Shown here: positions 2,045-36,490 of the stretch, piece by piece | Numbering within the stretch: the stretch's first letter is position 1 | How the letters are laid out: each line of letters starts with the position of its first letter | Assembly (NCBI RefSeq): GCF_023712425.1 | Contig: NZ_JAMAYG010000001.1 | Span: 558,001 to 622,000, forward strand | Direction of reading: 5' to 3' | Source: Rothia sp. P100 | GTDB lineage: Bacteria; Actinomycetota; Actinomycetes; Actinomycetales; Micrococcaceae | DNA: 64,000 bases | The notes under the pieces: generated by a model | What the model saw: only the letters and a program-made list of their open reading frames with translations | Databases searched by the model: none | What the model was told of the DNA's origin: nothing | Translations under genes and position numbers: made by a program

Positions 2045-2095
2045 GATTGAACCTTTCGGGACTGAAGAATAATTGAGACGGTTCACCGGTGTGGG

Positions 2096-2207
2096 AGCTG
2101 ACAGAGAGGGCGGCGGCAAGCTGGTCGGGTCTGGCGCCAATCGTCTCATGAGCGTTAGCGAACCGGGCGAGAGGGCCTGGCTTGCCGCCGCTCTCTCTCT
2201 TTCAGCG
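2096..2207 (+). repeat. Long structured palindromic element, copy A (gcvP-gcvT gap)
   Basis: An inverted repeat of about 110 bases: the outer arms (GCTGA, GAGAG, GCGGCGGCAAGC at 2096-2121) pair with the arms at 2180-2207. Inside is an inner helix CTGGC (2131-2135) with GTTAG (2154-2158), and the stretch AGCGAACCGGGCGAGAGGG (2157-2175), identical to copy B at 36395-36413. The G-T pairs in the inner helix make sense only if the plus strand is the RNA, which is antisense to gcvP and gcvT. Function unknown; could be a structured RNA or a REP/MITE-like repeat. Confidence 0.75.
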
Positions 2208-5137: not shown

Positions 5138-5363
5138 GGTGTCCTCCCCGCTCTGTTAAAACCTGAGAGTTTTAGTCTGCGCACCACCCATCACGCGCGG
5201 GTGTGCAAGCAGATTTTGCCCCTTCGGTTGGCGCCAAACTAGCGCCGTCTCCAGAGTTGCCATATCTAAGCGGTACATTTGCCTGAGAGTTTCCCGGGGA
5301 GGGTTTGCTCCTTCGGCGCCGGGGCGCAGTCCCTCAACCACGACTCTTCCGGTCTCTCCCGCA
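5138..5363 (-). promoter_or_regulatory. Tandem glycine riboswitch in the gcvP leader
   Basis: On the minus strand two glycine aptamers follow each other. The first begins GCGGGAGAGACCGG and contains CGCCGAAGGAGCAAA and AAACTCTCAGGCAAA; the second begins ACTCTGGAGACGGC and contains CCGAAGGGGCAAA and AAACTCTCAGG, closing with ACAGAGCGGGGAGG. These are the conserved blocks of the gcvT-type glycine riboswitch. Downstream, a CCTACCC/GGGTAGG hairpin (about 5117-5135) lies before the gcvP start and may be part of the expression platform; it has no clear U-run, so control of translation is as likely as termination. Confidence 0.95.
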
Positions 5364-5504
5364 TTAGCATAACGGCTCTATTTGTTTCCCTCCTTATTGT
5401 GCCACATGTTACAGGCCCGCACCATACGGGGCGCCTTCCAAGGATTTTGCTCCAGGCAGGCTTATCCCCTTTTGGCTAAGCCACCTCAAAACCGCAACAA
5501 AAAG

Positions 5505-35110: not shown

Positions 35111-36313
35111 ATGTCTGCCCGCGTTTCACGCCGTATTGGCGCAATCGCCCCCTCAGCCACTCTAGCCGTTGACGCCAAAGCCAAGGCGCTCAAAGCCCAG
35201 GGCCGCCCCGTCATCGGTTTCGGCGCCGGTGAGCCAGACTTCCCCACCCCGGCCTACATTGTTGACGCGGCTCGCGAGGCCCTGAACGACCCCGCAAACT
35301 TCCGCTACACCCAGGCAGCCGGCCTACCCGCCCTTAAGCAGGCCATTGTCGAAAAGACCAAGCGCGATTCCGGCATCGACATCGACGCTTCTCAGGTCAT
35401 TGTGACCAATGGTGGCAAGCAGGCTGTCTACCAGGCTTTCGCTACCGTCATTGACGAAGGCGACGAGGTCCTACTCCCCGCCCCCTACTGGACCACCTAC
35501 CCCGAGGCTATCCGCCTAGCTGGTGGCAACCCCGTGGAAGTTTTTGCGGGCAGCGACCTGGAGTACAAGGTCACCCCGGACATGCTTGAGGCTGCCTACA
35601 CCGAAAAGACCAAGGCACTGATCTTTGTCTCCCCCTCCAACCCCACCGGTGCGGTCTATACCCCCGAGGAAACCAAGGCTATCGGTGAGTGGGCGCTGGA
35701 AAAGGGAATCATCGTACTGACCGATGAGATTTACGAGCACCTGACCTACGATGGCGTGCCCTTTACCTCCATTGTTGCTGCTGTTCCTGCTCTTGCCGAG
35801 AACACCGTCATCCTCAACGGTGTTGCAAAGACCTACGCTATGACCGGATGGCGCGTGGGCTGGATGATTGCCCCTACCGATATCACCAAGGCAGCGACCA
35901 ACCTGCAGTCCCATATGACCTCCAACGTTAACAACGTAGCCCAGATGGCAGCTCTCACTGCCGTTTCTGGTTCCCTGGATGCCGTCCATGAAATGCACAC
36001 TGCATTTGACCGCCGCCGCAAGGCTATTGTTGAAGGTCTGAACGCCATTGAAGGTGTGCACTGCCCCACCCCCAAGGGTGCCTTCTATGTCTACGCGGAC
36101 GTCACCGGGCTGCTGGGCAAAGAAATTGCGGGCAAGCGCCCTGAAACTTCCGCTGAGCTGGCTGAAATCATTCTTGAAGAAGCCGAAGTTGCGGTAGTTC
36201 CCGGTGAGGCTTTTGGCCCTTCAGGCTACCTGCGCCTGTCCTACGCCCTGGGCGATGAGGACCTGACTGAGGGTGTAGCGCGTATTCAAAAGCTGCTGGG
36301 CACCGCCAAGTAG
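35111..36313 (+). CDS. aspB: Pyridoxal-phosphate aminotransferase, aspartate type (AspB/AspC, class I)
   Basis: Probably transfers amino groups between aspartate or a related amino acid and 2-oxoglutarate. The 400 residues match subgroup Ib aspartate aminotransferases: [41 protein letters not shown], the PLP-lysine motif [16 protein letters not shown], and LRLSYALG at the C-terminus. Position after tRNA-Trp and near secE is common in actinobacteria. The exact substrate (aspartate, or another such as prephenate) cannot be fixed from motifs alone. Confidence 0.9.
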
Positions 36314-36330
36314 GAGACAGAGGTCCAAGA

Positions 36331-36443
36331 CCGCTGATCAGCACAGCAAAAAAGCAAGCTGGCTGGGGCTGGCGTAAATCGCCTCGTGAGTGCCAGCGAA
36401 CCGGGCGAGAGGGTCAGCTTGCTCTTGCTGTGCTGGTTAGCGG
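36331..36443 (+). repeat. Long structured palindromic element, copy B (downstream of aspB)
   Basis: CCGCT, then CAGCACAGCAA (36339-36349) pair with TTGCTGTGCTG and AGCGG (36425-36443); then GCAAGCTG pairs with CAGCTTGC. Inside, CTGGC (36369-36373) pairs with GCCAG (36392-36396), followed by AGCGAACCGGGCGAGAGGG (36395-36413), identical to copy A. The outer stem has a different sequence from copy A yet pairs fully. It starts 18 bases after the aspB stop and has no T-run. Confidence 0.78.
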
Positions 36444-36490
36444 TCGAACTATTTAAATCTTGTTGGGGTGAGGTGCCAGCCTGCTTTTCA

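Follow-up and report, generated by a model that had tools for sequence, protein, structure and literature searches.

A probable MITE-type mobile repeat of Rothia with a covarying pseudoknot in its predicted RNA fold

What kind of element is the palindrome of about 110 bases that separates gcvP from gcvT in Rothia sp. P100, and is it shaped by its life as DNA or by a function as RNA? The 64,000-nucleotide stretch analysed here, referred to as the window, holds two copies, A and B. A sequence-only reading of this DNA had described the palindrome between the two genes, a core identical to that of a second element, and arms that differ between the two elements yet stay paired, and all three descriptions hold. 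Copy A occupies 2097-2206 on the plus strand, and the genes on either side were identified with Pfam as gcvT and gcvP, both located on the strand opposite its plus-strand fold. Folding of 2090-2212 gave -70.4 kcal/mol for the plus strand (z -4.8) and -59 kcal/mol for the minus strand (z -5.2), with 0 of 200 shuffles as stable on either strand. The core 19-mer AGCGAACCGGGCGAGAGGG is exact at 2157-2175 in copy A and at 36395-36413 in copy B, and two core matches with up to three mismatches appeared in 0 of 100 shuffles, whereas the outer arms of the two copies are unlike in sequence and paired in both. The two G-T pairs reported for the inner helix are likewise present, in CTGGCG (2131-2136) with CGTTAG (2153-2158). 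The earlier reading had missed a pseudoknot, formed in copy A by TCGTCT (2141-2146) with GGGCGA (2165-2170), as well as many more copies of the element and degraded terminal repeats lying outside the palindrome. The parts of copy A are the following:

2075-2091, plus strand: degraded left terminal inverted repeat (by eye; compare GAGGCTTATTCATAAGG)
2097-2124, plus strand: 5' arm of stem P1
2131-2136, plus strand: 5' strand of helix P2 (CTGGCG)
2141-2146, plus strand: 5' strand of the pseudoknot (TCGTCT), with covariation
2153-2158, plus strand: 3' strand of helix P2 (CGTTAG)
2157-2175, plus strand: conserved core 19-mer
2165-2170, plus strand: 3' strand of the pseudoknot (GGGCGA)
2177-2206, plus strand: 3' arm of stem P1
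2218-2233, plus strand: degraded right terminal inverted repeat (by eye; CTTATGAATAAGCCCC in the R. endophytica orthologue, L033)

By eye, the left terminal repeat of copy A reads GAGACGGTTCACCGGTG in the window and GAGGCGGTTCACAGG in the R. endophytica orthologue; the site A cluster scores one recognisable terminal repeat, and no target duplication was recognisable at copy A. The element is found in the gcvP-gcvT spacer at 2 of 30 loci, copy A being common to R. endophytica alone, with no model match in the 28 other loci of the genus. Comparison by eye of site A in the window and in R. endophytica revealed five differences in the 5' arm, three of them adjacent, all of which are mirrored in the 3' arm; further differences at the outer end of the 3' arm are unmirrored. 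The mirrored differences look like a template-switch or conversion event. Elsewhere in the window, two Rfam matches on the minus strand (5143-5372) correspond to a tandem glycine riboswitch upstream of gcvP.

Copy B, at 36329-36445, lies behind an aminotransferase-like ORF (35111-36313, named by eye) and comprises these parts:

36329-36362, plus strand: 5' arm of stem P1
36369-36374, plus strand: 5' strand of helix P2 (CTGGCG)
36379-36384, plus strand: 5' strand of the pseudoknot (TCGCCT)
36391-36396, plus strand: 3' strand of helix P2 (TGCCAG)
36395-36413, plus strand: conserved core 19-mer
36403-36408, plus strand: 3' strand of the pseudoknot (GGGCGA)
36414-36445, plus strand: 3' arm of stem P1

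The same element is present at site B in R. endophytica. R. nasimurium and its relatives carry other family members there, single or paired in opposite orientation (L302, L306), and in two loci (L301, L303) a plain hairpin stands where the element would be. This spacer (window 36320-36450, L297-L306) is a hot spot that holds different family members across Rothia. Because the arms differ between copies, it was considered whether a constant core had inserted into palindromes that were already present and unrelated to one another; this was rejected, the arms of different copies sharing lengths and motifs by eye, and insertion of such a core into a plain hairpin is still conceivable at L301, where a plain hairpin replaces the element.

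The two copies belong to a larger family that appears to be confined to Rothia. Sixty copies were used to build a covariance model (R1), which gave 13 matches in this 2.4-Mb genome, and the core with up to three mismatches gave ten, compared with three for a reversed control pattern. Across a host-family sample of 295 genomes, 25 of them shown as Rothia, the model search detected the element in 15, all Rothia (1 of 32 genera); with 16 candidates scored per genome, a count of 16 is a minimum. When one mismatch was allowed, a degenerate core was present in 20 of 35 genomes of the genus, with none for the control, although a few single matches look like chance. The exact core pattern, searched over 84,980 species genomes, returned 86 stretches, and the 80 listed are all from Rothia, including R. 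nasimurium, R. endophytica, R. nasisuis, Candidatus R. avicola and MAGs. The GC content of the element matches ranges from 0.55 to 0.72. Carriage by a phage or virus was considered and rejected, since the exact core pattern occurred in 0 of the viral contigs scanned and no phage match was obtained.

How such a family could have spread is suggested by its ends. Copies with intact ends carry GAGGCTTATTCA(A/T)AAG terminal repeats, and among 62 distinct sites 21 have both repeats, 17 have one and 24 have none. Shuffled flanks given the same treatment for 50 rounds yielded means of 0.26 two-ended, 9.8 one-ended and 52.0 end-less sites, with at most 2 two-ended; at least one repeat is therefore found at 38 of 62 sites compared with about 10 of 62 in shuffles. 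When each site cluster was represented by its first member alone, 20 of 62 sites were two-ended and 34 of 62 had at least one end. In a separate control, set against best-of-cluster counts, shuffles of one member per site gave 54 with none, 8 with one and 0 with two. A 3-bp target duplication flanks 8 of the 21 sites with both ends, where a chance of 1 in 64 per site would give about 0.3, a perfect one being absent from the other 13, and 18 of the 21 two-ended copies measure 144-162 bp. The end pattern GAGGCTTATTCANAAG occurs in 19 of 35 genomes of the genus, where it bounds insertion sequences of 0.9 kb. One insertion sequence with the same ends was read in this genome (G000:C11:731639-732530, with an ATT/ATT duplication), and a second pair of ends is known there from coordinates alone (842586-843487); of four insertion sequences compared, two have 3-bp duplications. 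Both transposases scanned match PF13359 (DDE_Tnp_4) and PF13613 (HTH_Tnp_4) above the cut-off and score 60.2 and 68.7 of the 140 bits required by NCBIfam IS5_4, which is below its cut-off. The terminal repeats common to the element and the IS5-like sequence span 16 bp, and through them a resident IS5-like transposase may move the element in trans, a transposition route proposed here from these shared ends.

Presence and absence at one spacer were also compared. In the L254 spacer the model matches at 2 of 12 loci (L254/L380 and L382); L384 and L386 appear empty, and by eye degenerate pieces are present in L383, L387, L390 and L391. The right-hand gene of this spacer is 79-91% identical across genomes, the left-hand side of R. 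endophytica is only weakly similar to that of the others, and inspection by eye reveals no clear duplication at the occupied site L382. Because of the terminal repeats, the 3-bp duplications and a spacer where some Rothia carry the element and others do not, the element is very probably a MITE-type mobile repeat of Rothia. At the level of the family, terminal repeats, target duplication, an autonomous partner that carries these ends and resides in this genome, and presence/absence polymorphism are all found. Among the three roles offered in the sequence-only reading, that of a REP/MITE-type repeat is thus the one borne out, by the terminal repeats, the duplications, the dispersed copies and the polymorphic site.

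Covariation was counted over a 12-pair section of stem P1, the 7-pair helix P2 and the 6-pair pseudoknot (TCGCCT with RGGCGA), in which the loop of P2 pairs with the strand on its 3' side. Two alignments were used. For A3, 87 copies were extracted, 70 passed an upstream-motif filter and 10 were left out for long inserts or lost arms; its search pattern included the 3' strand of the knot and not the 5' strand. A4 consists of 60 rows hand-picked from model matches, some of them orthologous to A3 rows. In A3 (57 distinct rows) 97.1% of the pseudoknot cells are paired and both sides have changed at 5 of 6 pairs. In A4 (52 distinct rows) 95.4% are paired, compared with 88.1% in shuffles, there are 18 double-change cells compared with 2.7, both sides have again changed at 5 of 6 pairs, and 0 of 500 shuffles reach any of five covariation measures, a statistic that ignores phylogenetic non-independence. 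The pair variants include TCACC/GGTGA, TCGTC/GACGA, TCGCA/TGCGA, TTGCC/GGCAA and TTGTC/GACAA, and at A4 pair 38-59 the base is absent from both strands in 13 of 52 rows and from one strand in 7. The pseudoknot helix covaries as a specific conserved fold does. No pair of helix P2 has changed on both sides in either alignment, and the four outermost columns of P1 are paired in fewer than half of the rows, partly as a result of differing arm registers. The further copies and the covariation whose joint absence would have told against a structured element were thus both found.

Most copies had been found with the core pattern, and the search itself therefore accounts for part of the core's constancy. 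Over 10 clusters of orthologous copies the core was more conserved than its flanks by a mean of +0.064 (p 0.037), with 2 of the clusters, that of copy A included, showing the reverse; this test is given little weight because both copies of each pair came from the core pattern. The state of the pseudoknot was also counted in relation to the ends, one site being skipped because its 5' strand could not be located. All five inner pairs form at 20 of the 21 sites with two ends, at 15 of the 16 with one and at 21 of the 24 with none, and the end-less copies hold more pseudoknot pair variants. Pairing in the end-less copies supports selection on resident copies, although these were derived from the core pattern and may represent a subfamily moved otherwise. 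The compensatory changes in the pseudoknot indicate selection on the RNA fold itself, even in copies without recognisable ends, and it is probable that RNA-level selection acts on the fold.

The strand that would be transcribed had been called from the G-T pairs, said to fit the plus strand only. Over the whole structure G-T cells exceed A-C cells by 145:17 and 127:12 in two samples, most of this excess sitting in a few pairs in which the wobble itself is conserved. Among pairs dominated by Watson-Crick states the ratios are 21:13 (p 0.23) and 26:11 (p 0.02), and the long arms of 71 copies, a set that includes orthologues, give 46:27. The call is moderately supported: once the conserved wobbles are set aside, the G-T pairs moderately favour the plus strand, which is preferred rather than proven, and transcription of the element from this strand is putative.

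The surroundings of the copies bear on what such a transcript might do. Genes, taken as ORFs of at least 150 aa and not from annotation, allowed 59 of the 62 sites to be classed (2 have no gene on one side and 1 lies inside an ORF), giving 24 convergent, 19 tandem antisense, 11 tandem sense and 5 divergent sites. In 54 of the 59, by raw count, one or both neighbouring genes have their 3' end facing the element, at distances that range between less than 20 and over 1000 bases. Sense copies are not in excess among the 59 sites, and a role restricted to sense 3' UTRs was rejected on this ground.

On balance, the explanation that we favour regards copy A as an old member of a non-autonomous, MITE-type family with a selected plus-strand RNA fold and a role at transcript ends. 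Its interior would encode a long hairpin (P1) with arms that are variable yet largely paired, the inner helix P2 and a pseudoknot cap, and the element would most likely be read within transcripts running past the ends of neighbouring genes. The knotted hairpin could then serve as a transcript-end structure, that is, a barrier to 3'-5' decay or to read-through; this role is put forward tentatively, and it would account for the element's being tolerated and retained next to the 3' ends of genes. In the leading alternative the element is a neutral MITE, a palindrome of DNA without any RNA role: template switching within the hairpin keeps the arms paired, and the core is alike as the copies are recent. 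The mirrored arm differences at site A, which look like a single event, speak for such a switch. In the orthologous pairs B, L004/L077, L008/L088 and L209/L248, by contrast, the arm changes are by eye mostly unmatched, as in decay without selection, which also suits a neutral element; template switching could also copy the pseudoknot strands, these being an inverted repeat. However, the pseudoknot pairs vary independently, G-T states included, pairing persists in copies without terminal repeats, and G-T exceeds A-C, which a DNA process would not favour, so that the neutral account appears rather unlikely. A similarly low probability is given to a self-standing functional RNA that gained transposon ends, spread with them, and has a fold that selection now preserves in resident copies after the decay of those ends; such an RNA might be a ribozyme, bind a protein or form a cap that resists exonucleases.

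The remaining candidates fare worse against the same evidence. That copies adjoin gene 3' ends, and that a plain hairpin replaces the element at site B in L301 and L303, would suit an ordinary intrinsic transcription terminator at each site, a role also contemplated in the earlier reading, but the pattern scan (loops of 3-8) found 0 terminator-like sites at A or B, no T run is visible by eye beside the stems on either strand, a conserved pseudoknot and core would be out of place in a simple terminator, and copy A stands between two genes that are both on the opposite strand; a terminator is accordingly judged very unlikely. A trans-acting or antisense small RNA gene, with copy A acting on gcv, agrees with the plus-strand fold and with the antisense position of copy A to gcvP and gcvT. 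Yet the genes next to the copies are many and varied, with the copies in every orientation to them, the 59 classed sites showing every flanking-gene arrangement, and a pattern scan for sigma-70-like promoters, the one promoter type that it covered, found none at A or B, which leaves the suggested antisense role highly improbable. Rothia-sucC is a structured RNA of the same genus, presumably with a model in the Rfam version scanned, and the earlier reading had raised it as a candidate for copy A. Permissive Rfam scans of copy A (E up to 10), copy B (E up to 1) and six other copies (E up to 0.1) contained no Rothia-sucC match, and the microRNA and snoRNA hairpins that they returned, far below their gathering scores, were taken as chance. 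At L411, the sucC-family (PF08442) locus of this genome, there was neither an Rfam match at the gathering score nor an element-model match, and Rothia-sucC was not encountered in the literature searched, which lay mostly outside subscription journals. Identity of the element with Rothia-sucC is unsupported and judged extremely unlikely.

Bacterial MITEs are usually described as DNA parasites with hairpin-forming transcripts, and an RNA-level fold is an unusual feature for an element of this type. BOX and other MITEs are the closest known kind. The pneumococcal BOX, RUP and SPRITE elements are, according to the main text of their description (PMC3049150), small dispersed MITE-type repeats with predicted tightly folded RNAs near gene ends, like the Rothia element, and BOX is modular, as are the long Rothia variants; in BOX and RUP the terminal repeats are described as paired to each other. 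They differ in genus and in their terminal repeats, and the words pseudoknot and compensatory are absent from that main text, whereas the Rothia fold has a covarying pseudoknot. Bacterial MITEs such as Correia/NEMIS, ERIC and QMITE2 have, in the main text of a review (PMC10969869), terminal repeats, target duplications, a partner insertion sequence and stable hairpin transcripts, as the Rothia element does. The same text reports that Correia transcripts are cut by RNase III and that mRNA levels are affected by ERIC copies located at the 3' ends of genes; it describes MITEs as typically AT-rich, in contrast to the GC content given above for the Rothia element, and does not contain the word pseudoknot. 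REP/REPIN sequences (compare PMC3116915) share with the Rothia element the form of dispersed extragenic palindromes, but the Rothia ends match an IS5-like DDE transposon. The family itself was found neither in Rfam nor in the literature searched, and that literature, again mostly without subscription journals, gave no paper naming both MITEs and Rothia and none that answered in full to a combined query on MITEs and pseudoknots. It is a further family to annotate in Rothia, and with the 13 matches and the covariance model one can now test whether many unrelated genes receive functional RNA ends from a mobile repeat. If the functional-RNA reading is true, the element would be a mobile structured RNA domain in bacteria.

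Several copies illustrate the variety of the family. A truncated element that keeps its left terminal repeat is found on plasmid pSD9660c (NZ_CP125945.1, 3.4 kb; L412, 2354-2427), from a Rothia of a dog nasal swab, and another copy (L001) has lost its 5' arm. L393 and L392 share, by eye, the same insertion, which in one of the two genomes has been reduced to a plain hairpin by an internal deletion. The sole model match in genome G029 (L159) is a clean copy with an AAT duplication beside an apparent partial tRNA gene, again by eye. Long variants in R. nasimurium, R. nasisuis and R. endophytica (L116, L117, L098, L013 and L014) contain extra hairpin modules inside, such as ...GAGCGAACGGAATC..., and one extra module lies within 260 nt of a core in 15 of its 17 occurrences, in loci chosen for holding a core.
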